NCBI GenBank assembly: GCA_019241645.1
Contig: JAFAWQ010000038.1
Location: 1 to 64,000 of the forward strand
DNA length: 64,000 nucleotides
Reading direction: 5' to 3'
Origin: Alphaproteobacteria bacterium
Lineage (GTDB): Bacteria; Pseudomonadota; Alphaproteobacteria; Micropepsales; Micropepsaceae
Below, piece by piece: positions 4,914 through 24,146 of this stretch. How positions within the stretch are numbered: the stretch's first letter is position 1; each line of letters opens with the position of its first letter. The notes beneath the pieces are model-generated. The model had not been told where the DNA came from. It saw only the letters and a program-made list of their open reading frames with translations, and searched no databases. The position numbers and the translations under genes are program-made.

Positions 4914-6005
4914 TCAGCCGTCTTCCTGATGGAAAACAAGCGACATGCCAAGCAGGATCGCGGCGGAAGCCGGTGCCGCGGCTGCAAGCGGCACGGGAAG
5001 AATGCCGGAAATGCCCAGCGCCTGCGTGACATCACCCAGGAAATAGATGCCGAAGCCGCAGAGCGCGCTGTAGAGCACCACGCGTCCCATTCCGCCCAGC
5101 CGCGACAGGCGAAGCGAAAAGCTCGCGGCCATGAACACCATCGCGGCAAACAATGCCGGCATCACCAGCAGGCTGTCGAAGTACAGCTCGTAGCGGTTGG
5201 CGGAAAAGCCGGCCTGGCGGGCATTGAGAATGAATCCCGGCAAATCCCAGAACGACATGGTGTCCGGCGAAGCAAAACTTTCCTGAATGCGCGACGGCGT
5301 CAGACTGGTCGACAATTCGTAGTTGGCGCGGTGAACCGGATGCCCGTCAACGCCGCTGATCCATGCATCGCGCAACAGCCACACCCCGGGCTGAAGGGCG
5401 GCGGAGGCGGCATCGATGCGGCCTCGAAAAGCATCCTCCGCGCCATAGAGAAACACGATTACATCGTCGAGCCTGACACCCTGCTGCGAAACGCGCAGCG
5501 CATGAATCACCGATTGCTGCTCGCGATTGCCCTGACGCAACCACAGGCCATTGCGCGACACCGCGAGCTGCGAGGGCTGGTCGTGGATGTAGCGCGCTTC
5601 CAGTCCCGCGAAACGCTGCAGCAGCAGGGCCGAGAACGGCGTGAAGGCCAGCGCCGCGAAAACGCCGAGCGTGACCGCGACGGCGAGCGCGGGCGCCAGC
5701 AGGTTCCAGGCAGAAAGCCCTGCCGCCCGCACGGCGATCAGCTCCTGACTCCGGGAAAGCCGCACGAAGGTGAAGACGCCGCCGAGCAATACGGCGAACG
5801 GCAGCAGCTTGAGGCAGAGATCGGGGAGCTGCAGCAGCGCCATGCCGATCACCACCGAACTGGACACATGCTTGCCCGCTGTCTGATTGAACAGGTCGAC
5901 GATGTCGATCGAGAGCGACAGGAAGGCGAACGAGGCGAACACAATTCCAACGCCAAGCAGGAACTGCCTGCCGATGTAGCGATACAGCGTCCACGACCAG
6001 CTCAT
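4914..6005 (-). CDS. lptG: LPS export ABC transporter permease LptG
   Basis: 363 residues from the ATG at 6005. This ATG overlaps the lptF stop in an ATGA motif, which decides the start over longer upstream readings. YjgP/YjgQ family permease: three N-terminal membrane helices (starting TLYRYIGRQFLLGVG), a periplasmic beta-jellyroll, and three C-terminal helices. With LptF and the ATPase LptB (not in this window) it extracts LPS from the inner membrane and passes it to LptC/LptA/LptD. LptF, LptG and LptD are encoded consecutively here, so a single transcript supplies both ends of the export bridge. Confidence 0.93.
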   Translation of the reverse strand: MSWSWTLYRYIGRQFLLGVGIVFASFAFLSLSIDIVDLFNQTAGKHVSSSVVIGMALLQLPDLCLKLLPFAVLLGGVFTFVRLSRSQELIAVRAAGLSAWNLLAPALAVAVTLGVFAALAFTPFSALLLQRFAGLEARYIHDQPSQLAVSRNGLWLRQGNREQQSVIHALRVSQQGVRLDDVIVFLYGAEDAFRGRIDAASAALQPGVWLLRDAWISGVDGHPVHRANYELSTSLTPSRIQESFASPDTMSFWDLPGFILNARQAGFSANRYELYFDSLLVMPALFAAMVFMAASFSLRLSRLGGMGRVVLYSALCGFGIYFLGDVTQALGISGILPVPLAAAAPASAAILLGMSLVFHQEDG

Positions 6006-7138
6006 TGTGCCGCCACCGGCAGGCGAGGGCTGAACCAGAAATCCGGCCGCAGCATATCGGCACGGCGGATCTCGAGTACCGCAAGCGCTGTGCCCAGAAT
6101 CGGCAGAAGATAAAGCGCGATGGCGGCAACAGGATGTCTCACTGTCAGACCCTGCGCGCCATAACCGGCAAGCCGCAAGATGCCTGCGGCAACGGCGGCC
6201 AATGTCAGGCGCAGGGAATAGGCACTCCTGTCGCGGCGCCCGCGGGCGATGGCGGCGAGGACGATCAGGGCAAAGGCGACGCAATAAAGCGGTGCCGACA
6301 ATCGGCTGTGGGCCTCGGCAAGGTAGATGCGCCGCAGGCGTCCGCCGGGGTCTTTTGGCAGCTTCGGCCAGAACAGCTCCGAAAGAAACCGCTCACTCGT
6401 CTGGAGCGACTTGGTGCGTTGTTGTTCCGCGAATTGTTCGAGGTCGAACACGTACCGCTCGAATTTGAGAACCGAGAGCCGGCTGCCTTTCGCCGTGCGT
6501 TGTTCAACGGTTCCCTTCATCATGATGAGGCGCGGCCCGGCCGCCGTCACGGCGAGCAACCCCGCTTCGGCGAGGTAAGTTGTCGGCCGCTCCGTGCTGC
6601 GGTTGTCGTGCACGAGGATGCCGTGGATGTGCCCGTCGGGATCGAGTTCGCGGATGAACACCGTGAGACCTTTCACCGGCGTGTTGAACTTGCCCTCGCT
6701 CAGCAGGGCAGCGCCGATATCGGCGCGGATATTCATCACCTCCGCCTTCATGCTGCGCTGGCCCAGCGGCATCAGGTAGAGGGCGCAGAGATAAGTGGCG
6801 GCCATCACAATGGCGGCGGCCAGAAGGGTTGGAACAGCGAGCTGGCTGCGGCTGTAGCCGGCGGCGCTCATGACCACCAGCTCGCTTTCGACATTCAGCC
6901 TGTGCAGGCCGTACAGCGTGCCGCCGAAGAAGGCGATCGGCAGGATGATCACCAGCAGCTGCGGCAGCATCATCAGCGTGAGGTAGGCAAAGGTGGTCGC
7001 CGACTGTCCCCGGTTCACCACCAGATCCAGAAGCCGAAGCGACTGCGACAGCCAGATCACGATGGTGAGCAGGATGGTGAACAGCAGGATCGGCTGAATC
7101 AGCTGCCGAAGAACGTAGGTGGACATTCGCGGCAGCAT
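6002..7138 (-). CDS. lptF: LPS export ABC transporter permease LptF
   Basis: 378 residues; an ATG at 7126 would give 374 and begins directly at MSTYVLRQL, which is equally plausible. YjgP/YjgQ family: N-terminal helices with LLTIVIWLSQSLRLLD, the conserved coupling region ESELVVMSAAGYS, a central periplasmic jellyroll, and three C-terminal helices. It forms the inner-membrane heterodimer with LptG. This is the first gene of the leftward lptF-lptG-lptD-surA-pdxA-rsmA run. The 167-bp gap to the divergent pepA must carry the promoters, but no convincing -35/-10 pair was recognised. Confidence 0.93.
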   Translation of the reverse strand: MLPRMSTYVLRQLIQPILLFTILLTIVIWLSQSLRLLDLVVNRGQSATTFAYLTLMMLPQLLVIILPIAFFGGTLYGLHRLNVESELVVMSAAGYSRSQLAVPTLLAAAIVMAATYLCALYLMPLGQRSMKAEVMNIRADIGAALLSEGKFNTPVKGLTVFIRELDPDGHIHGILVHDNRSTERPTTYLAEAGLLAVTAAGPRLIMMKGTVEQRTAKGSRLSVLKFERYVFDLEQFAEQQRTKSLQTSERFLSELFWPKLPKDPGGRLRRIYLAEAHSRLSAPLYCVAFALIVLAAIARGRRDRSAYSLRLTLAAVAAGILRLAGYGAQGLTVRHPVAAIALYLLPILGTALAVLEIRRADMLRPDFWFSPRLPVAAQ

Positions 7139-15108: not shown

Positions 15109-15426
15109 TTACTCGTCCCTGACGTTGCGCAGAATTCTTTCGTAATCGCGGCCGCCGTAAAAGATTCTGACGATGACCACCTCTGACCGCTTCACCTGGA
15201 AGGCGATGGCGGCGCAGCGTTCGAAGCCGACGATCCTCAGCCCGGGTCTTATGTCGTCGCGAGAGGTGCCGCGCCGAGGTGCAGTGCGGAGCGCCATGCA
15301 GGCGCTTTCCATTCTGGCAATGTAGTCGCCTGCAATTTTTCGCCCCGACTGCTCCGCGATGTAGTCGTAAAGCCCGCGCAAATCCTGTTCGGCCATCGGC
15401 CGGAACACGACCCCGTACGTTTTCAC
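15109..15426 (-). CDS. parE: ParE/RelE-superfamily toxin
   Basis: 105 residues. It has the ParE-type order: FRPMAEQDLRGLYDYIAEQSG at the N terminus, then ARMESACMAL, and the C-terminal strands LRIVGFERCAAIAFQV and VVIVRIFYGGRDYERIL. Family members poison DNA gyrase (ParE) or cleave mRNA (RelE); the sequence fits the ParE branch better because of the long first helix pair and the RIFYGGRD ending. It starts within the stop of the upstream antitoxin gene (4-bp overlap), the usual type II arrangement with the antitoxin first. Confidence 0.9.
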   Translation of the reverse strand: MKTYGVVFRPMAEQDLRGLYDYIAEQSGRKIAGDYIARMESACMALRTAPRRGTSRDDIRPGLRIVGFERCAAIAFQVKRSEVVIVRIFYGGRDYERILRNVRDE

Positions 15427-15692
15427 GCCTTTTTGCGCCGCGACCGTTCATGACGGCGGCGCAGCGTGGAAAACACCTGTTCTGCAGGAATGCTGGGCCG
15501 AGGATCGTTGAGGGACCGATCGATTTCTTCGCGTAGAACGCTCCGGATGGCGTCGTCTTCCCGGTCCAGGGCGCGCACAGCAGCGCGCAAGACCTCGCTC
15601 GCCGATGCATAGCTTCCCGAGCGCACCCGGGAATCCACCCGCTCCTTGAGATCACCCAACGTGACGGTCAGCGGCGAACTCGTTCGGGCCAT
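15423..15692 (-). CDS. parD: ParD-family ribbon-helix-helix antitoxin
   Basis: 89 residues. The N-terminal half (LTVTLGDLKERVDSRVRSG, then YASASEVLRAAVRAL) is a ribbon-helix-helix DNA-binding domain of the CC2985/ParD type. The basic C-terminal tail, with RRRHERSRRKK, would wrap the toxin. It precedes parE with an ATGA-type 4-bp overlap. An inverted repeat (15709-15721) sits just upstream of its ATG and is the likely autoregulatory operator. In this family the antitoxin represses its own promoter, more strongly when bound to toxin. Confidence 0.9.
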   Translation of the reverse strand: MARTSSPLTVTLGDLKERVDSRVRSGSYASASEVLRAAVRALDREDDAIRSVLREEIDRSLNDPRPSIPAEQVFSTLRRRHERSRRKKA

Positions 15693-15936: not shown

Positions 15937-16413
15937 ATGGAACCCGGTAATGAAGCTGGCGGCGCTCCCGCCGCAACCGTGCAACATGCCGAGCCAGACG
16001 CGAAACCAAATTTCGGTCTGGCGATTGTCGCAGGTATTGCGGTCGCGGTGTTGGGCGCCGTGCTGTGGGCGTTCGTGACGGTTGTCAGCGGCTACGAGCT
16101 GGGGCTGATGGCGATCGCAATCGGCTTTCTGGTCGGGCAGGCGATCCGTTTTGCCGGAAAGGGAACGGACAAACGATTCGGCTATCTCGGCGCTGTGTGC
16201 GCTTTGGCCGGCTGCCTCCTCGGCAATTACCTGAGCGCGATAGCGTTCTTTGCGAAAGCGCAGGGCCTCGATCTCATGCAGGTGATCGGAATTCTTGATC
16301 CTGATTTGTCGCAAAAACTCATGACGGCCACCTTCAGCGCCATGGATCTGCTCTTCTATGCCATCGCGATCTACGAAGGTTTCAAGTTTTCGACTGAACA
16401 GCGCGCGCAATGA
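15937..16413 (+). CDS. Small multi-span membrane protein of unknown function
   Basis: 158 residues. After a polar N-terminal 26 residues there are four hydrophobic segments: about 27-50 (LAIVAGIAVAVLGAVLWAFV), 52-72, 82-105 and a last one near 130-150 (FSAMDLLFYAIAIYEGF). No named family is recognised. Its stop overlaps the start of the DUF2167 gene by 4 bp, and that gene in turn overlaps an M50 protease gene, so the three are a tightly coupled operon. A role as a membrane partner of the other two is inferred from this context only. Confidence 0.78.
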   Translation: MEPGNEAGGAPAATVQHAEPDAKPNFGLAIVAGIAVAVLGAVLWAFVTVVSGYELGLMAIAIGFLVGQAIRFAGKGTDKRFGYLGAVCALAGCLLGNYLSAIAFFAKAQGLDLMQVIGILDPDLSQKLMTATFSAMDLLFYAIAIYEGFKFSTEQRAQ

Positions 16414-17357
16414 GCTACGCAATAGGAACACCACGTTTCTTCCTTGCGAGCATCCTGCATGCATTTTTGTTCTTCGCCATGGCGGAGTTCTGTCCTGCTG
16501 CGATTGCCGCAGATTCGAAGCCGTCGGAATATGCGACGATGCTTCAGAGAGAAGGAAAAATAGGACCGCAAGACATCATGCTGCGGGATCAAGCGAAACT
16601 GAACCTGCCGATCCAATACGCCTTTTTGCCGGAGGCAGCTGCAAGAAATTTCATGCAACGGCTGGGAAACCGCACGGATGAAAACTTTCTCGGGATTATT
16701 CTTCCGCAGAACGAAAGCAACTGGTTCTCCATTTTGGAGTTCTACCCTTCCGGGTACATCAAGGACGAGGAGGGAAAGGATATCGATGCCGACGCCATGC
16801 TGCGGGATATCCGCGAAAATACCGAGGAAGGAAACAAGGTCCGCAAGGCCCGGGGAATACACGAAATGGAGGTTCTCGGCTGGATCGAGAAGCCGCATTA
16901 TGACCGGCTTACCCATCGCCTGATCTGGTCGATTTCCGCGCGCGACAAGGGTGACACGAAGAACAGCATTATCAATTACAAGACGCTGTTGCTTGGCCGC
17001 CAAGGCTACATTGCGATGGTGTTGGTGACTGACCTGAAAATGATCGAAGCGCAGAAGCCGATTGCTTCGCTCCTTCTGTCGAAGCTAAGTTTCGTCGGAG
17101 GCAAGCGCTATACTGATTTCAATCCGTCGACTGATCGGGTCGCGGAATATGGGATTGCAGCCCTGATCGGTGGGGTCGTGGCGCACAAGTTGGGGTTCTT
17201 CGCACTGGCAGCCGCCTTTCTCGCAAAATCCGCAAAATTTCTTATCCTTGTTGCCGCAGGTGCATTTGCGGCTGCTGGCAAATGGCTCCGCCGCAAAAAG
17301 CAAGGCGCGGCGCCGCAAGCTGAACCGGTGGACGCGACGGCGCCGCCGCCAACCTGA
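16410..17357 (+). CDS. DUF2167 membrane-anchored protein
   Basis: 315 residues: a signal-like N terminus, a large extracytoplasmic domain and C-terminal hydrophobic segments (about 245-290, GIAALIGGVVAHKLGFFALA onward). The domain shows DUF2167 hallmarks: LEFYPSGYIKDEEGKDIDAD, NKVRKARGIHEMEVLGWIEK and PHYDRLTHRLIWSI. The biochemical function of DUF2167 is not established to my knowledge. It overlaps its upstream membrane-protein gene by 4 bp and the downstream site-2 protease gene by 1 bp; the protease is therefore a candidate processing partner. The tail ends in a Pro/Ala-rich stretch. Confidence 0.87.
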   Translation: MSYAIGTPRFFLASILHAFLFFAMAEFCPAAIAADSKPSEYATMLQREGKIGPQDIMLRDQAKLNLPIQYAFLPEAAARNFMQRLGNRTDENFLGIILPQNESNWFSILEFYPSGYIKDEEGKDIDADAMLRDIRENTEEGNKVRKARGIHEMEVLGWIEKPHYDRLTHRLIWSISARDKGDTKNSIINYKTLLLGRQGYIAMVLVTDLKMIEAQKPIASLLLSKLSFVGGKRYTDFNPSTDRVAEYGIAALIGGVVAHKLGFFALAAAFLAKSAKFLILVAAGAFAAAGKWLRRKKQGAAPQAEPVDATAPPPT

Positions 17358-18070
17358 TGATCAAACTTCTCCTCGCGATATTCGCGGCCGCGAAGGCCGG
17401 AAAAATCCTCACGACGGCCGGTACGATGCTGATTTCCGTCGGCGCGTATGCGCTGCTCTATGGCTGGCGATATGCCACCGGCCTGGTCTTGCTGATCTTT
17501 GTCCACGAAATGGGGCACTTCGTTGCCGCGCGCCAAAAGGGACTCGAAGTTGGCGCGCCCACATTCATTCCTTTCGTCGGCGCATGGGTGGCGCTCAAGG
17601 ATACGCCGATGAACGTGCAGACGGAGGCATATGTCGGGTTGGCCGGTCCCCTTGTCGGAAGCGTGGGCGCCCTGTTGTGTTACTTCCTGGCGCGCGCTTA
17701 CGGCAGTCCGCTGCTGCTCGCGCTGGCGTATGCTGGATTTTTTATAAATTTGTTCAATCTCATTCCACTGTCGCCATTCGACGGCGGCAGGATTACGGCG
17801 ATTCTTTCACCGCGCGTATGGCTTGTCGGGGCGCCAATGCTTCTCGCGCTCTTTCTGTGGCGTCCCAGCCCGCTGCTGGTCGTAATGGCAATCTTGGCAG
17901 CGCCACAGGTGATGAAGGCATTCCGATACAATCCCGCTGCTCCCGAAAATGCGGGTTACTATGCGAGCACGCCAGAGGACAAACTTGTCTACGCGACGAT
18001 GTACATTGGGCTCGCGGCGTTTCTTGCGATCATGTCCTACGATACAAAAGCGATGATCGAGCCTGGCTAA
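17357..18070 (+). CDS. Site-2 protease family (M50) intramembrane metalloprotease
   Basis: 237 residues, almost all membrane helices. The zinc motif HEMGH is at residues 50-54 inside the second span, and the second conserved motif reads FNLIPLSPFDGGRI, equivalent to the NPDG site that supplies the aspartate ligand. There is no PDZ domain, so it belongs to the compact M50 group rather than RseP. Such enzymes cut transmembrane segments of partner proteins. It is the last gene of a three-gene operon with DUF2167, and its stop overlaps the end of a convergent M48 protease gene by 4 bp. Confidence 0.9.
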   Translation: MIKLLLAIFAAAKAGKILTTAGTMLISVGAYALLYGWRYATGLVLLIFVHEMGHFVAARQKGLEVGAPTFIPFVGAWVALKDTPMNVQTEAYVGLAGPLVGSVGALLCYFLARAYGSPLLLALAYAGFFINLFNLIPLSPFDGGRITAILSPRVWLVGAPMLLALFLWRPSPLLVVMAILAAPQVMKAFRYNPAAPENAGYYASTPEDKLVYATMYIGLAAFLAIMSYDTKAMIEPG

Positions 18071-19611
18071 GCTTTGCCTGCCGCCTTCTTGCAGGCGTCG
18101 GTGAGTTCGTCGATGTCGTATTTCTTGCATTGCGGCACCAGCGCTTCGGCCTCGCTCTGGCGGCCCGCGCCTTTGAGAACGGTAATGCGCTTGGGCAGCA
18201 GCACCGGCGAATTCTCGAAGCGCACCACCGCGCGATCCATCAGCGCCTGCGCTTTGGGATAATCGCCGCGACCGATGTAGATATCGGTCAACCGGGAATA
18301 GACTTCCCAAGAGGGCTCCGGCCCGTTCGCCGCTTTCACCAGCGCGGCCTCCGACAGCGCGTTCTGGCGATCCAGCTCGTAATACTCCGCCGCCACGAAC
18401 TGTGTGTAGGCGTGGTCGGCCGTGGGATTGGCGGTGGACGAGGCGACATACAATTTCGCCGAAGTTGGACTGCCCTGCGAACGGTCCGCCACATAGGCAG
18501 CGGCGTTCTCCGCCAGCGTGTAATGCGCCATCAGCGCCGTCAGATGCGGCTTGAGCGATGATTTGCTCGTTGCACTCCACGGCAGCGGAGTCGGGTTCAC
18601 CATCGCCGCGTTGCGATATTCGCGGAAGGCATAGGCGCTGATCAGATCCTCGCGCACTCTTGCCGGGTGATGCGAGGTCGCATCTTCCGCCATGCTGTCG
18701 ACCGCCTCATCGAAAGCGAAAATGGCGATGTCGGCGATCTGGTCGTTGCTGGGCGCGCTGCCGCTAAGGATGCTGCCCAGCGCGCCGGCGCCGAGGCTCA
18801 ATCCCCTCGCCACACTGTCGCCGCCGCCGCCGGAATTCTTCTTCGCAGCAGCGCGCGCTTCGGCCGCTGCCGCGGCCGCTGCCGCTTCCTGCACCGCCAG
18901 CTTGTCCATTACCGAGAGCGCGGCTTGCGGATCGTAGCCCGCCTTCACCACCAGATCGAAGCCGAGCGCGTCGGCCGCATCTTCCTCGCCGCGCTCCATT
19001 TGCGGCATCAGCACGTTGGCGCTGAGCTTCGCCAGATGCTGCGCCACATCGAGGCCGCGCATGATGTTGTCGCCGGTCTGACCGCCGGCGATGAAGGCCG
19101 CGGATTTCGCCATCGTGTCGACGGCGCCGCCGTTCACCACGGAATAATACTGCGCTTTCTTGAACCAGTTCTTCGCCTGGTGCTTGTAGATGGCGTGCGC
19201 CACTTCGTGGCCAAGCACGAAGGCCAGCTCGTCCTCGTTTTCCAGAAGTTCGAGCAGGCCGACCGTGACGATCAACGTGCCGTCCGGTGTGCATTCGCCG
19301 GTGAACTCCGGCGCCGCCAGCACGCGCACCTGGGGATGAAACGATGGCGGCATCTTCACATTGACGAGCAGGCGCGCCAGCACGCCTTGCGCGTAGGATT
19401 GCAGCTGCGGCGACGGCACGAAGCCTTGCGCGCGCGCACGCAAGATTCCCAGCGCCAGCGGCCGGCCCGACAAGACGTCTGTATAGTCAGTCGATACGGA
19501 GACTTGCGACAATGCGGTGCCGCGGCTGGGATAACCGTCCCCAGCGCTCGCCAGCGCGGATGTGGTGGCGAGCAGCGCGCCTGCCAGTGTCACGAAAGTA
19601 GCCGGGCGCAT
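18067..19611 (-). CDS. Periplasmic M48 metalloprotease with C-terminal TPR-like region
   Basis: 514 residues from the ATG at 19611, which gives a signal peptide (MRPATFVTLAGALLATTSAL). The zinc site HEVAH is at residues 135-139 and the third-ligand motif EDAAD at 210-214, matching the BepA/LoiP class of M48 peptidases. An alanine-rich linker near residues 245-260 is followed by helical repeats in the last 150 residues (ALVKAANGPEPSWEVYSRL, RGDYPKAQALMDRAVVRF). BepA-like enzymes act in outer-membrane protein quality control; that role here is by analogy. It is the third gene after CHASE2 and SH3-like genes with 1-4 bp overlaps. Confidence 0.9.
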   Translation of the reverse strand: MRPATFVTLAGALLATTSALASAGDGYPSRGTALSQVSVSTDYTDVLSGRPLALGILRARAQGFVPSPQLQSYAQGVLARLLVNVKMPPSFHPQVRVLAAPEFTGECTPDGTLIVTVGLLELLENEDELAFVLGHEVAHAIYKHQAKNWFKKAQYYSVVNGGAVDTMAKSAAFIAGGQTGDNIMRGLDVAQHLAKLSANVLMPQMERGEEDAADALGFDLVVKAGYDPQAALSVMDKLAVQEAAAAAAAAEARAAAKKNSGGGGDSVARGLSLGAGALGSILSGSAPSNDQIADIAIFAFDEAVDSMAEDATSHHPARVREDLISAYAFREYRNAAMVNPTPLPWSATSKSSLKPHLTALMAHYTLAENAAAYVADRSQGSPTSAKLYVASSTANPTADHAYTQFVAAEYYELDRQNALSEAALVKAANGPEPSWEVYSRLTDIYIGRGDYPKAQALMDRAVVRFENSPVLLPKRITVLKGAGRQSEAEALVPQCKKYDIDELTDACKKAAGKA

Positions 19612-20009
19612 CAATTCGCTCCCTTCTTTGGACAACCCTCGCCCAGACCGCGCGTCGCGCCCGCTTTCTGGTCGTTGCTGCCCATCGCGAGGTTGCGGCA
19701 GACGGCCGGCAGCTTTCCGGAGAAGCGGTATTTCACCATGTAGGGCGGCACCCAGTATTTGCCGCCGTTGACGTTCACCTGCAGCATGAAGTTCGGCGCG
19801 CGGCCGCTGATCGGCGTGCAGGCGGGGAATTTCCCCTGTTCCATCGTCATCACCTTCTTGCCGGTCGGCGCGTCGAAGAGATCGACTTCCGGCGTGCGCG
19901 CGCTGAGCACGACGTCGCCGCTGGTGGTGCTGCAATCCTCTGTCGACGCTATCGCCGACGATGACACCGCGATAAGCGCCGCGCCGAAACAAATTCCAAT
20001 CCCTTTCAT
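19611..20009 (-). CDS. Small secreted SH3-like, cysteine-containing protein
   Basis: 132 residues with a signal peptide (MKGIGICFGAALIAVSSSAIA). The mature protein has four cysteines and a central segment VDLFDAPTGKKVMTMEQGKF, then GGKYWVPPYMVKYRF. The pattern of short strands resembles a bacterial SH3 domain; this is a structural guess, not a firm family call. The ATG overlaps the CHASE2 stop by 4 bp and the stop overlaps the M48 protease ATG by 1 bp. A periplasmic adaptor between the membrane CHASE2 protein and the protease is an inference from that order. Confidence 0.72.
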   Translation of the reverse strand: MKGIGICFGAALIAVSSSAIASTEDCSTTSGDVVLSARTPEVDLFDAPTGKKVMTMEQGKFPACTPISGRAPNFMLQVNVNGGKYWVPPYMVKYRFSGKLPAVCRNLAMGSNDQKAGATRGLGEGCPKKGAN

Positions 20010-21565
20010 GTCACCCGTTCCTCTGCCGCGTCGAGAGCCGGACCCGGAGCAGCCTGGAGCTGCCCGCCCGCCACATGATGCAAATATCCCCAGATCGAAT
20101 CCGGCAGTCCCACAAGGAGCATCGCCGCCAGCTCGACCGACACGAACACGACCTCGACCCAGTTGGCGACCGAAAGACCGGCGGAGCGAGTCAGTAGCAG
20201 CCCTACCCCAAGCGCCAGCCCGAAGGCGAGATAGTGCCAGACTTTTTCCACCGCCTTGTCGAAGAAATACTCGAAGGTGACGCTGCGCTCGCGCGCCGGC
20301 TCGCAGAGTTTAAGCCGCTTGCGCCGCACGCTGCGCCAGTGAATCAGCGAGAGAATGAGGATGACCGGGATGGTGGCGACGATCTGCACCAGATTGCCGT
20401 CCACCGGCTTGCCGCCGAGAGAGATGGCGTTCTGGAACGGGTGGCCGCGGAAGGTGATGAGATTGTCCATCGCCATGGCATGCACGAACACACCCGGCAG
20501 CAGATCGTTTACCGGCGTGTAGACGCGGTCCTGCGCCCCCTGCAGCGCGCCGCCGTAGAAGATGACGCGGTTGGTCGCCATCTTCACGACGTCTTTGTCG
20601 TCCGGCTGCAGCAGCATTCCGTCGACGGGAAATTCCGCGGTGTAGGGGCAGGGGCTCTTCACCACGCTGGTGTTGAAAAAGGCGAGATACCAGCGGCGGA
20701 GCAGATTCATGTCCTCGAAACAGGAGTGGGAGTCGCCGCTTGCATCGGAGCGGGTGATCCAGTGGTTCTCGGGCGCCGTGCGTGTGCCCCACACCAGCTC
20801 CATCATGTCGTTCACCGGCGCCGGCGGATATTTCTTGCCGTAGAGATCGCGATAGACGCGCAGCGCCAGCGACGGACAATTGCCTTGCGCATCGGGATTC
20901 TGGTTGAAGCAGCGGCCGGTGGCATTGTACTGACGCGCCACGCCGGAATTGATCGGGATCGACGGATCGATGACCGGCACGCCAGTTTTCGCAAGCTCCG
21001 GCCGCAGCGGGTTCTCACCGTAAGGCAGATCGATGCCGCCTTCGAAATAGATCGGCACGCCTGCCTTGCGGTAGCGGCCGATCTCCGCGACGAGATCCTT
21101 CAGCGTTTCATCGGGACGCGAATCCACGAACAGGAAATCGACCACCACGGCTTTCGGCTTGTACTGCAGCAGTGCATCCAGCACGCGGGCGTGATCGCCA
21201 TATTTCCACGGCCACGGCGAGTTGAGCGTGTGCAGCGTGTTCTCGTCGACGATGGCGACGGAGACATTGTCGCGGCCTTCGGTGCCATAGAAATATGGCC
21301 CGGTGATCAGCAGGTCCGAAACATCCTGCGAATAGCGCTGCACCAGATCGCTGAAGCCGAACGGGTTCATCCAGATCTGGAAGGTGGAGATGGTCACCAG
21401 CACCGCCACCATGAACCAGTAGGGCACGCCGAGCCGCAGGCATTCCATGTCGTCGCGGTTGGGCCGCCTGGCGCGCGCGATGGCGCCGCTCATGCGTTTG
21501 GTGGGTTGTCCCTGAGGCGCCGTCATTCTCTGGCCGAAAACGAAGGCGGCCGGTTCACGCCCCAT
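20006..21565 (-). CDS. CHASE2-domain transmembrane protein without output domain
   Basis: 519 residues (starts at 21526 or 21493 would be shorter and are possible). After one N-terminal span near residue 50 comes a large extracytoplasmic CHASE2 domain: VAIVDENTLHTLNSPWPWKY, AVVVDFLFVDSRPDE, and near residue 330 NRVIFYGGALQGAQDRVYTP followed by LPGVFVHAMAMDNLI. Three C-terminal spans follow (about 395-415, 448-466, 472-495). CHASE2 is usually a sensor input for kinases or cyclases; no kinase, cyclase or HAMP domain is present here. It leads a three-gene operon with a secreted SH3-like protein and an M48 protease. Confidence 0.88.
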   Translation of the reverse strand: MGREPAAFVFGQRMTAPQGQPTKRMSGAIARARRPNRDDMECLRLGVPYWFMVAVLVTISTFQIWMNPFGFSDLVQRYSQDVSDLLITGPYFYGTEGRDNVSVAIVDENTLHTLNSPWPWKYGDHARVLDALLQYKPKAVVVDFLFVDSRPDETLKDLVAEIGRYRKAGVPIYFEGGIDLPYGENPLRPELAKTGVPVIDPSIPINSGVARQYNATGRCFNQNPDAQGNCPSLALRVYRDLYGKKYPPAPVNDMMELVWGTRTAPENHWITRSDASGDSHSCFEDMNLLRRWYLAFFNTSVVKSPCPYTAEFPVDGMLLQPDDKDVVKMATNRVIFYGGALQGAQDRVYTPVNDLLPGVFVHAMAMDNLITFRGHPFQNAISLGGKPVDGNLVQIVATIPVILILSLIHWRSVRRKRLKLCEPARERSVTFEYFFDKAVEKVWHYLAFGLALGVGLLLTRSAGLSVANWVEVVFVSVELAAMLLVGLPDSIWGYLHHVAGGQLQAAPGPALDAAEERVT

Positions 21566-21686: not shown

Positions 21687-21698
21687 AGTTTGGCCGCT

Positions 21699-22004
21699 GT
21701 GGAAAAGCGCCGCCCGACCTTTCGGCTTGACCGATTTCGGGAGGTTTGCGGCGATCCGCGTCGATTGGCAGTCACCCGTTCGGCGTTGTCGGATGCGCTG
21801 TCGTCGGGATTTGCGCGAGAAGACATGGCAGCAGTCGTTCGCTCGATCAAGCCGTCGCAGTTCTACAAATCGATGACGAGTTTCGCCGATAGCCACCGAT
21901 GGCAAGATGTCTATCACGTGCCGTGGAACGGGATGGTTCTCTACATCAAGTTCACCGACGACACGCTGACGGAGTTCACGGTGCTCTCGTTCAAGGAGCG
22001 TTGA
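21699..22004 (+). CDS. mqsR: MqsR-family mRNA interferase toxin
   Basis: 101 residues from the GTG at 21699, which reproduces the family N terminus (VEKRRPTFRL, compare MEKR in E. coli MqsR); a TTG at 21690 would add three residues. The core IKPSQFYKSMTSFADSHRWQ, DVYHVPWNGMVLYIKF and the ending LSFKER match MqsR throughout, including the K, Q and Y positions of the RelE-like active site. MqsR cleaves mRNA, preferring GCU in E. coli. The toxin gene precedes the antitoxin gene, the usual inverted order of mqsRA, with no gap between them. Confidence 0.9.
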   Translation: MEKRRPTFRLDRFREVCGDPRRLAVTRSALSDALSSGFAREDMAAVVRSIKPSQFYKSMTSFADSHRWQDVYHVPWNGMVLYIKFTDDTLTEFTVLSFKER

Positions 22005-22418
22005 ATGGCAAGGACGAAAATTCATCCGGTGACCGGCGCGACACTACGGCGCGATGTGCGGCCGTATACGGTGCGTTACGGCGGACGAACACTTACCGTC
22101 GATCTGCCGGGTTGGTATCCGGAGGATAACGGTGAGAGTCTGCATATGGGCCGGGACATGCAGGCGAGCGACGAAGCGCTGAAAGAGTTGCGATCCATTG
22201 TCGGCGATTCGATGCGCCCAGCAGAGGTTCGGGCTATTCGCCTCCGGCTGAAGCTGTCGCAGCGCAAGGCCGGAGACATTCTCGGCGGCGGGCCGCGCGC
22301 ATTCCAGAAATACGAGTCGGGTGAAGTAGCGGTCAGCCGGCCGATGGCGCAATTGCTTCGACTGCTGGATCGCGATCCCGCACGCTTGAAGGAGTTGAAT
22401 GCACAGGCCGCCGAATAG
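22005..22418 (+). CDS. mqsA: MqsA-type antitoxin lacking the zinc-ribbon cysteines
   Basis: 137 residues. The C-terminal helix-turn-helix is clear: EVRAIRLRLKLSQRKAGDIL, then GGGPRAFQKYESGEVAVSRP, closely matching MqsA (GGG..AF.RYE.G). The N-terminal half (GATLRRDVRPYTVRYGGRTL) keeps the strand pattern of the toxin-binding domain, but the whole protein contains no cysteine, so the CxxC...CxxC zinc site of E. coli MqsA is gone. It follows mqsR directly. It probably represses the operon through the palindrome at 21670-21686. Confidence 0.88.
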   Translation: MARTKIHPVTGATLRRDVRPYTVRYGGRTLTVDLPGWYPEDNGESLHMGRDMQASDEALKELRSIVGDSMRPAEVRAIRLRLKLSQRKAGDILGGGPRAFQKYESGEVAVSRPMAQLLRLLDRDPARLKELNAQAAE

Positions 22419-22844
22419 CTAGCGGCTGAATTTTTCCGAAAGGATGATCGAGGAGACAGTGCGGGTCACGCCGTGCGCGCGGCCGATACGGTCCAGCGCG
22501 GCGTCGATCTTGGCAGGAGTCTCCGCTTCTACATTGGCCACCATGTCAAAAGCGCCCGACACCGCGCACAATGAGCGCACCTCCGGCATCCTCTTGAGTT
22601 CCGTGGCGACGCGCTCGGCCTGCTTGGGATCGGCGGTAATCATCACCACGGCCCGCAGCCGGCGCGGTTCCCCGGCATCGGCGAGCCGAACGGTGTAGCC
22701 ACGAATCAGCCCTTCGCGCTCCAGCCGCGCGATACGCTCCTGCACGGTGGAGCGCGCCAGCCCCAGCTTGCGGGCGAGCGAGGCGGTCGGCTCCCGCGCG
22801 TTGGCCTTGAGCAGGGCAATGAGCTTGGAGTCGGCGTCGCGCAT
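22419..22844 (-). CDS. Lrp/AsnC family transcriptional regulator
   Basis: 141 residues. The N-terminal winged helix-turn-helix (SKLIALLKANAREPTASLAR, KLGLARSTVQERIARLEREG) is followed by the RAM effector-binding domain (RAVVMITADPKQAERV, VCAVSGAFDMVANVE-like). Members respond to amino acids and form octamers that wrap DNA. It is divergent from the saccharopine dehydrogenase gene, and three TCCGGCG-type inverted repeats lie immediately upstream of its start, so it probably controls both itself and that gene, with lysine or a derivative as the likely ligand. Its 3' end abuts the convergent mqsA. Confidence 0.92.
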   Translation of the reverse strand: MRDADSKLIALLKANAREPTASLARKLGLARSTVQERIARLEREGLIRGYTVRLADAGEPRRLRAVVMITADPKQAERVATELKRMPEVRSLCAVSGAFDMVANVEAETPAKIDAALDRIGRAHGVTRTVSSIILSEKFSR

Positions 22845-22850
22845 TCCGGA

Positions 22851-22916
22851 TCAGGCGTTTTGCCGGACCATCCGGCGATTCGCCGGACTATAGCGCAACT
22901 TCCGGCGCTTCGCCGC
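22851..22916. promoter_or_regulatory. Three inverted-repeat sites between lrp-like gene and saccharopine dehydrogenase
   Basis: The middle site (22871-22887) is a perfect repeat, TCCGGCGA-T-TCGCCGGA. Imperfect versions lie on either side: 22851-22867 and about 22901-22916 (TCCGGCG..CGCCG). Centres are roughly 20 and 29 bp apart. The phased array and its place directly upstream of an Lrp-family start codon fit cooperative Lrp binding. This is inferred; no footprint can be read from sequence. Confidence 0.55.
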
Positions 22917-22948
22917 CTCCTTTTCAATGCTGTTCCATCGCACACTGT

Positions 22949-23044
22949 CGTCATCACCCGGTCGCGCGACACAGCGCGGTCCGGGTGACCCATTTTACGG
23001 TCGAGCAAAGAAATTGGGTCGCCCGCACGAGGCGGGCGATGACG
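22949..23044. repeat. Palindromic intergenic repeat element (REP/MITE-like)
   Basis: A 96-bp element with outer arms CGTCATCACCCG and CGGGCGATGACG (one mismatch). Two internal hairpins are present, one built from TCACCCGG (22954) with CCGGGTGA (22981) and one from GCCCGC (23021) with GCGGGC. The layout matches the short palindromic repeats scattered through many alphaproteobacterial genomes. It ends 22 bp before the saccharopine dehydrogenase start, so it lies in that gene's leader. Confidence 0.65.
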
Positions 23045-23066
23045 AACAGGAGAGGACGGTGGCGCC

Positions 23067-24146
23067 ATGAAGAACGTTTTGCTTGTCGGCGGCGGGAAGA
23101 TCGGCGTCGCCATCACGGAATTCCTGTCGCAGTCCGGCGATTATAAGGTCACCGTGGCGGACCGCGATCCGGCTAGCCTGGCGCGCATGCCTTCGGACGA
23201 CAACGTCACCCTGCGCGAGATCGACATTCTCTCCCGTGATTTCTTCTCCGCCGTCGAAGGCCACGACATCGTGCTGTCGGCGACGCCGTATCACCTCACC
23301 GCGAAGGTGGCCGAGGCCTGCAAGCAGGGCGGCGCGCACTATCTCGATCTTACCGAAGATGTGGAATCGACCCGCACCATCAAGAAACTGTCGGACGGCG
23401 CGAACACGGCCTTCGTTCCGCAATGCGGGCTGGCGCCGGGTTTCATTTCCATCGTCGCCTACGATCTTGCCAGGAAATTCGACAAGCTGCGCGACGTGCA
23501 GATGCGCGTCGGCGCGCTGCCGGTGTTTCCGCACAACGCGCTGAAATACAATCTCACTTGGTCGACCGATGGCCTCATCAACGAATACTGCAACCCCTGC
23601 GAATCCATCCGCGACGGCGTGCTGGTGGAAGTCCCGGCGCTCGAGGAGCTGGAGCAGTTCACCCTCGATGGCGTCGAGTACGAAGCCTTCAACACCTCGG
23701 GCGGACTTGGCACCCTGTGCGATACGCTTGCCGGCAAGGTGGAGAATCTGAACTACAAGACGGCGCGCTATCCCGGCCACCGCGACATCATCAAGCTGCT
23801 GGTGCGCGACCTGCATCTCGGGACCCGCCGCACCATCTTCAAGGACGTGCTGGAGACGGCGATTCCCATCACCTATCAGGATGTGGTGCTGGTGTTCGTC
23901 ACAGTATCGGGCTGGATCAACGGCCATCTGACGCAGGAGAGCTACGCCAAGAAGATCTACGCGCAGACAGTCGGCGGCCGTTTGATGAGCGCCATCCAGA
24001 TCACTACGGCGTGCGGCATCTGTGCGATGTGCGACCTGCTGGTGGAAGGCAAGCTGCCGCAATCAGGCTTCGTGCGGCAGGAGGAAGCAAAGCTGTCCGA
24101 TTTCCTCGCCAACCGCTTCGGCCGCTATTACGGGCAAGAGAAGTAA
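23067..24146 (+). CDS. Saccharopine dehydrogenase (Lys9-type)
   Basis: 359 residues. The N-terminal Rossmann fold starts NVLLVGGGKIGVAITEFLSQ, followed by DIVLSATPYHLTAKVAEAC and HYLDLTEDVEST, all typical of the saccharopine dehydrogenase family. The substrate domain includes VPQCGLAPGFISIVAYDLA. The expected reaction is oxidation of saccharopine to glutamate and 2-aminoadipate semialdehyde. The divergent Lrp-type regulator and an aldehyde dehydrogenase of the aminoadipate-semialdehyde class at 29089 support lysine catabolism. A carboxynorspermidine-type activity is the main alternative. Its leader contains a palindromic repeat element. Confidence 0.88.
   Translation: MKNVLLVGGGKIGVAITEFLSQSGDYKVTVADRDPASLARMPSDDNVTLREIDILSRDFFSAVEGHDIVLSATPYHLTAKVAEACKQGGAHYLDLTEDVESTRTIKKLSDGANTAFVPQCGLAPGFISIVAYDLARKFDKLRDVQMRVGALPVFPHNALKYNLTWSTDGLINEYCNPCESIRDGVLVEVPALEELEQFTLDGVEYEAFNTSGGLGTLCDTLAGKVENLNYKTARYPGHRDIIKLLVRDLHLGTRRTIFKDVLETAIPITYQDVVLVFVTVSGWINGHLTQESYAKKIYAQTVGGRLMSAIQITTACGICAMCDLLVEGKLPQSGFVRQEEAKLSDFLANRFGRYYGQEK

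Follow-up and report, generated by a model that had tools for sequence, protein, structure and literature searches.

A gene set conserved in Proteobacteria links a CHASE2-only membrane protein, a small SH3-like secreted protein and an M48 metalloprotease

The DNA under study (the window) comprises positions 1 to 64,000 of contig JAFAWQ010000038.1 (assembly GCA_019241645.1) from an alphaproteobacterium of the family Micropepsaceae. Open reading frames on its minus strand, from 21565 to 18067, encode in order of transcription a CHASE2 protein, a small secreted SH3-like protein and a metalloprotease of the M48 family. That the three products constitute a dedicated envelope module is well supported by the conservation of the set, its linkage, the intact active site of the protease and the lack of any other recurrent gene or output. 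A preliminary description, made from the sequence alone, had pointed out that the genes overlap by 1-4 base pairs (bp), and the reading frames bear this out: the CHASE2 gene shares 4 bp (ATGA) with the small gene, which in turn shares 1 bp (TGATG) with the M48 gene.

The genomes sampled belong to the Pseudomonadota and comprise the window's genus (69 genomes) as well as samples of the class and of the phylum. At 32 loci, a long M48 gene lies next to a gene for a CHASE2-only protein, so the set is more than a product of chance. At 31 of these loci, both genes are co-directional and in the same order, with a gene for a small secreted protein between them; in the remaining genome (G299), the CHASE2 gene is divergent. 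Named carriers are Tistrella mobilis and Paroceanicella profunda (Alphaproteobacteria), Caballeronia sp. M1242 (Betaproteobacteria), and Photobacterium sp. DA100 (Gammaproteobacteria). In Paroceanicella, Tistrella, and Caballeronia the products are annotated as CHASE2 domain-containing protein, hypothetical protein, and M48 family metalloprotease or metallopeptidase. The neighbourhood that the preliminary description proposed to look for across Alphaproteobacteria thus occurs there and beyond, in three classes of Proteobacteria, and is not confined to a single genome.

Different searches return the same picture. When species genomes were scanned with the CHASE2 protein, every relative returned had the small gene, and also an M48 gene provided that the contig extends far enough. 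Profiles of the CHASE2-only subfamily matched additional loci in both the class and the phylum sample, and the surrounding regions held CHASE2, a small secreted protein and M48. The last six regions were picked by the CHASE2-only profile alone, with neighbours not used in the search; the set was complete in five of them, whereas the sixth held a decayed copy. In the class sample, the set occurs in about 12 of 385 genomes, so it is rare but broad. An all-against-all comparison of the neighbouring genes showed that only members of the set recur across distant loci, and the order is kept in the three classes at about 20% identity. No fourth conserved gene was found among these neighbours, an Lrp-like regulator and a dehydrogenase being syntenic in the window clade only.

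Within the genus, the profile of the small protein matches 13 of the 69 genomes, always within the set. The same 13 genomes possess the CHASE2-only and long M48 genes side by side, apart from G438, in which the set is split by a contig end; a 14th genome (G029) carries a divergent version. No lone member of the set was found among the 69 genomes. Altogether, 93 CHASE2 loci are present in the genus, with an M48 gene within 3 kilobases at 16 of them as judged by a family profile at an E-value of 0.001, which could miss other M48 genes. The 16 loci correspond to 12 sets of the window type, the divergent set of G029, and three sets of another order (see below); the split set of G438 is the 13th of the window type.

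The small protein has an N-terminal signal-like stretch and four cysteines in its mature part (Cys26, Cys64, Cys104, and Cys126), but no family match in Pfam, its SH3 families included, or in NCBIfam. Bacterial SH3 domains are among the best Foldseek matches of its modelled barrel in the PDB (E 0.2-0.7, probability about 0.95), although none of the matches reaches E 0.001 or better; weak E-values are expected for 60 residues. The earlier characterization as a small secreted cysteine-containing SH3-like protein holds for the signal-like stretch, the cysteines and the confidently predicted barrel, with the SH3 matches themselves weak in E-value. The C-terminal loop is modelled at low confidence, with a predicted local distance difference test score (pLDDT) below 50. 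The family signature in this region consists of a cysteine, 6-34 residues, an [ST]xxG-like stretch and a cysteine near the end (in summary form C...TRGxGxxC). The window protein, for example, has CRNLAMGSNDQKAGATRGLGEGC, that of Photobacterium CTQQTISKKSDKQVFSTHGLGEGC and that of Tistrella CGATLAQNGAPRTGSNLGNGC. In G434 the small gene is present, though the script that searched for the signature missed it. Profile comparison with hhalign aligned the window-clade proteins with a group of five further small proteins from Alpha- and Betaproteobacteria and a sixth, more remote one at E 4e-17, and with the group from a second class (gamma) at E 3.9e-9, while the alpha/beta group aligned with the gamma group at E 5.4e-11. 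These alignments indicate that the small proteins of the different classes form one homologous family, with a common barrel-like core and the C-terminal signature.

The CHASE2 domain scores 70.5 bits against a Pfam cut-off of 26.3, and no second domain exceeds its cut-off. In the AlphaFold2 model (mean pLDDT 82.4, computed without three alignment rows from plasmid records), an N-terminal helix and the ectodomain are followed by three long helices (390-421, 429-462, and 466-485). As only about 20 residues come after the last of these, there is no room for a cytoplasmic output domain, which agrees with the earlier view of a CHASE2 membrane protein without a kinase or cyclase. Alignment with orthologues suggests that the true start is Met14, at about 21526, giving 506 amino acids. 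Trp259, His362, Ala363, and Asn368 are invariant at the set loci (alignment of 32 loci), and the ectodomain contains a conserved HAxAxDN motif. A cysteine pair comparable to that of the subfamily (Table 1) was not seen in five other CHASE2 proteins that were checked (L016, L017, and L040-L042). The helices that follow the ectodomain hold a segment, GLSVANWVEVVF, that is near-invariant in the window clade but not conserved outside it. Searches with Foldseek and VIA gave a best Z of 5.5 and no standout match to a solved CHASE2 fold; the top rows (TAP, TRiC, and TesA/SGNH) are weak and may reflect a common arrangement.

The protease reaches 66.2 bits with Peptidase_M48 (Pfam cut-off 20.3). Both sites named in the preliminary description, HEVAH and EDAAD, are intact, whereas its tetratricopeptide repeat (TPR)-like tail stays below the Pfam cut-off (TPR_14, E 0.014); the family profile resembles TPR/PPR repeat proteins. 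In BepA, the active-site plug involves His246 and Arg252 in an HPx4R-type motif (PMC7950410). Because the spacing of His314 and Arg320 in the window protein equals that of the BepA pair, we infer that the M48 enzymes of the set are also held by an active-site plug. The window sequence reads HHPARVR, with His rather than Pro after the aligned His. A lipobox-like sequence occurs in most M48 proteins outside the window clade (pattern match only); the enzyme is apparently soluble in the window clade and a lipoprotein in most distant relatives. This periplasmic or lipoprotein M48 is the sole recurrent enzyme beside CHASE2, as anticipated when a periplasmic protease was named its only enzymatic partner. 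That the window protein is a BepA orthologue is not supported: it scores far below the cut-off of the BepA model NF052400 of NCBIfam (48.8 against 570 bits). The genome has a separate BepA-like M48, which is itself under that cut-off (133.8 bits).

These features fit a reading in which CHASE2 senses, the SH3-like protein adapts and a plugged M48 enzyme is released, all as parts of one envelope module, and we hold this reading as the leading one at somewhat short of even chances. CHASE2 would be an inner-membrane receptor with its ectodomain towards the periplasm and no cytoplasmic output. The SH3-like protein, periplasmic and with a disulfide loop closing its C-terminal end, might serve as an adaptor between CHASE2 and the protease, which, like BepA, would be kept inactive by a plug that binds the zinc. 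If CHASE2 and the SH3-like protein docked together on the plug or on the TPR-like tail, this could release the protease or direct it to an envelope substrate. The output of CHASE2 would be proteolysis outside the cytoplasm instead of cyclic nucleotides or phosphorylation. The broader proposal, a new signalling class in diverse Proteobacteria with CHASE2 acting wholly outside the inner membrane (from ligand through SH3-like adaptor and plugged M48 to periplasmic proteolysis), is put forward more tentatively, as a possibility that we rather doubt than expect.

Several observations weigh against this reading. Sensing of a ligand, physical contact between the proteins, plug release, any substrate and the sign of regulation are inferred steps. 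The pairwise distances of the three proteins are correlated (Mantel rank r 0.48-0.57, with none of 1000 permutations as high), but the correlation is only 0.22-0.30 among distant loci; such a correlation attests to common inheritance, not to contact, and the descent of a linked cassette can by itself yield it. By alignment, the plug His is replaced by Tyr or Thr in five of the 32 proteins, so that the plug may act differently in some members. The small protein of G773 lacks the cysteine pair. Finally, since the window's genome encodes two further M48 proteins (frames of 463 and 494 amino acids) and an HtpX-like one, the module is not the sole route of envelope proteolysis by M48 enzymes.

The strongest competing explanation, in our view unlikely, dispenses with a ligand: CHASE2 would be a passive inner-membrane anchor that, together with the SH3-like protein, positions a BepA-type M48 protease/chaperone for assembly of the outer membrane or envelope. 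The BepA-like catalytic domain and TPR-like tail of the protease, the missing cytoplasmic output of CHASE2 and the lipoprotein nature of M48 in most distant relatives (by pattern match), which recalls YcaL and LoiP of E. coli, are all consistent with such a scaffold. However, BepA, YcaL or LoiP operates in most bacteria with no CHASE2 protein to anchor it, the window's genome encodes further M48 proteins (a BepA-like one among them), and a whole sensor ectodomain with the HAxAxDN motif and Trp259 is unexpectedly well kept for a pure anchor.

With still less probability, the small protein could be a dedicated client or inhibitor of M48, whose TRGLGEGC loop enters the cleft and is either cut or blocks it, CHASE2 reading the cut or uncut form. 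The loop is strongly conserved in otherwise diverged proteins and the small gene directly precedes the protease gene, but a loop predicted at a pLDDT below 50 lends no structural support to the idea. Cleavage of the CHASE2 ectodomain itself by M48, with a signal passing through the three C-terminal helices to an unlinked cytoplasmic partner, seems improbable. It would follow the sensor-plus-protease logic of DegS/RseP and BlaR1/MecR1 and is in keeping with the near-invariant segment in the window clade; yet this segment is not conserved outside the clade, and no conserved cytoplasmic domain or fourth gene that might take the signal was found. A fortuitous neighbourhood of three unrelated envelope genes joined by shared synteny, as the Lrp-like regulator and the dehydrogenase gene are in the window clade, is hardly credible given the all-or-none presence in the genus and the same order in three classes at about 20% identity without another shared neighbour, and chance or local neighbourhood is refuted by recurrence of the set in unrelated contexts.

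Cyclases with CHASE2 are described whose activity increases when a plant protein is perceived by way of NsrA, a barrel in the outer membrane (PMC13001267). Like other CHASE2 receptors (e.g., the Sinorhizobium cyclases CyaD1, CyaD2, and CyaK, and kinases), the window protein combines a Pfam CHASE2 ectodomain with an N-terminal helix, three C-terminal helices and periplasmic input. It differs from them in the absence of a cyclase, kinase or other cytoplasmic output, in its diverged ectodomain (70 bits, where the best-scoring CHASE2 proteins reach about 200) with the subfamily cysteine pair, and in having a small protein and an M48 protease as constant partners. The M48 enzyme shares with BepA (YfgC), the periplasmic M48 protease/chaperone of E. 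coli, the M48 domain, the Glu zinc ligand, the H-x5-R spacing, the envelope location and a C-terminal part that is TPR-like below the Pfam cut-off, whereas about 65 extra residues separate its HExxH from the plug His. With the M48 lipoproteins LoiP and YcaL, the enzymes of the set have in common that they are envelope proteases, many of them with a lipobox-like sequence outside the window clade; a TPR part is absent from LoiP and YcaL (PMC7950410), and the window protein scores 32 bits with the LoiP model (cut-off 365). The small protein shares a predicted SH3-like barrel with bacterial SH3 (SH3b) proteins, in contrast to which it has no Pfam SH3 match, a C-terminal cysteine loop and a fixed gene context. 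In the papers found, the sole link of CHASE2 to a protease is with caspase-type domains of cyanobacteria, namely in metacaspases, e.g., Trichodesmium 638105709 (PMC2853523); there, the caspase-type domain resides in one protein with CHASE2, unlike the separate periplasmic zinc enzyme of the window.

In the open-access literature (PMC), no paper was found that joins CHASE2 with M48, with a metalloprotease or with SH3, and the relevant papers on CHASE2 and proteases concern caspase homologues, mainly cyanobacterial. As far as this literature shows, CHASE2 and M48 are undescribed partners, in line with the earlier remark that no system of this make-up was known.

Table 1. Coordinates of the three genes and their principal features in the window
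Feature	Position	Strand	Basis
CHASE2-only inner-membrane protein gene	20006..21565	(-)	519 amino acids as called; Pfam CHASE2 E 2.1e-19; AlphaFold2 model; orthologues 50-79% identical
First membrane helix, residues 49-66	21368..21421	(-)	AlphaFold2 helix; hydrophobic in all orthologues
CHASE2 ectodomain, residues 81-376	20438..21325	(-)	Pfam
Ectodomain cysteine pair Cys282 + Cys306, predicted disulfide	20648..20722	(-)	kept at 30/32 and 31/32 set loci
Three C-terminal membrane helices, residues 390-485, no output domain after	20111..20398	(-)	Pfam and AlphaFold2
Small secreted SH3-like protein gene	19611..20009	(-)	132 amino acids; family alignments
SH3-like barrel, residues 33-95	19725..19913	(-)	AlphaFold2 pLDDT above 90; Foldseek matches to bacterial SH3
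C-terminal cysteine loop Cys104...TRGLGEGC126, family signature	19632..19700	(-)	regular expression, 30/32 loci
M48 metalloprotease gene with signal peptide	18067..19611	(-)	514 amino acids; Pfam Peptidase_M48 E 4.4e-18
Zinc-binding HEVAH, residues 135-139	19195..19209	(-)	His135, Glu136, His139 invariant, 32/32
Third zinc ligand motif EDAAD, residues 210-214	18970..18984	(-)	Glu210, Asp214 invariant, 32/32
Putative active-site plug motif H-x5-R, residues 314-320	18652..18672	(-)	Arg320 32/32, His314 27/32
TPR-like C-terminal region, about residues 400-472	18196..18414	(-)	sub-threshold Pfam TPR and Wzy_C_2; profile match to TPR/PPR repeats
C-terminal cysteine pair Cys495 + Cys507	18091..18129	(-)	each kept 31/32

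Directly upstream of the CHASE2 gene and divergent from it, the window contains genes for an MqsR toxin (8.4e-26) and an MqsA antitoxin (8.7e-20) at 21690-22418 (+); this pair is missing in L002 and L003, two relatives in which CHASE2 is next to the Lrp-like regulator. The regulator (Lrp/AsnC type) and a divergent saccharopine-dehydrogenase-like gene (22419-24146) account for the synteny upstream of the set in the window clade. Downstream, a tight cluster at 15937-18070 (+) encodes an unclassified protein of 158 amino acids, a member of the DUF2167 family (3e-76) and a site-2-type protease of family M50 (5e-15); it converges on the M48 gene, with which it shares its last 4 bp. Neither DUF2167 nor M50 turned up next to the set in those relatives that were searched. 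A ParE/ParD toxin-antitoxin pair follows at 15109-15692 (-), and a related pair lies just behind the tandem M48 genes at L044 (G431). Such a second M48 gene comes after the first at L003 (5592-7103) and L044 (5386-6921), and a second M48 fragment is also present in G438. In Tistrella and Paroceanicella, a gene for an NMT1/TAXI-like periplasmic solute-binding protein comes after M48 (L059, 10218-11219; L056, 6956-7930); its product is a possible ligand-binding accessory in this branch. A decayed CHASE2-only copy without an intact set is located at L063 (about 5316-6608), on another replicon of G294, apparently a Tistrella. No RNA families and no sigma-70-type promoter were found near the operon. 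An anti-phage defence system was dropped as a candidate, PADLOC giving no match for the window's three proteins, and so was a phage origin, the sole PHROG match being an unnamed one at the M48 domain.

Three of the 69 genus genomes (G435, G441, and G009; loci L040, L041, and L042) contain tightly packed genes in the order SH3-M48-CHASE2. These sets comprise a small protein with a weak Pfam SH3 match and no cysteine loop, a short M48, and an ordinary-looking CHASE2 without a recognised output but with an unrecognised cytoplasmic tail. A profile of their SH3 protein gave strong matches in the same three genomes only. Either the three domain types came together independently in these genomes, or the sets are very remote relatives of the window-type set.

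Until now CHASE2 has been regarded as the input part of cyclases and kinases that act in the cytoplasm. The subfamily described here is distinct and has an envelope protease as its partner instead, in no fewer than three classes of Proteobacteria. For the small protein, listed as a "hypothetical protein" in three annotated records, there are now two constant partners, a signature that defines the family and a fold prediction. M48 proteases such as BepA are known to be kept closed by a plug; how this plug opens is poorly known, and the module supplies two candidate dedicated regulators, so that the question becomes directly testable with three genes. Because it recurs intact in distant Proteobacteria and no description was found in the open-access literature, the module may be an unrecognised route by which bacteria control protein breakdown in the envelope. 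If the broader signalling proposal is true, an environmental signal would be turned straight into regulated periplasmic proteolysis.

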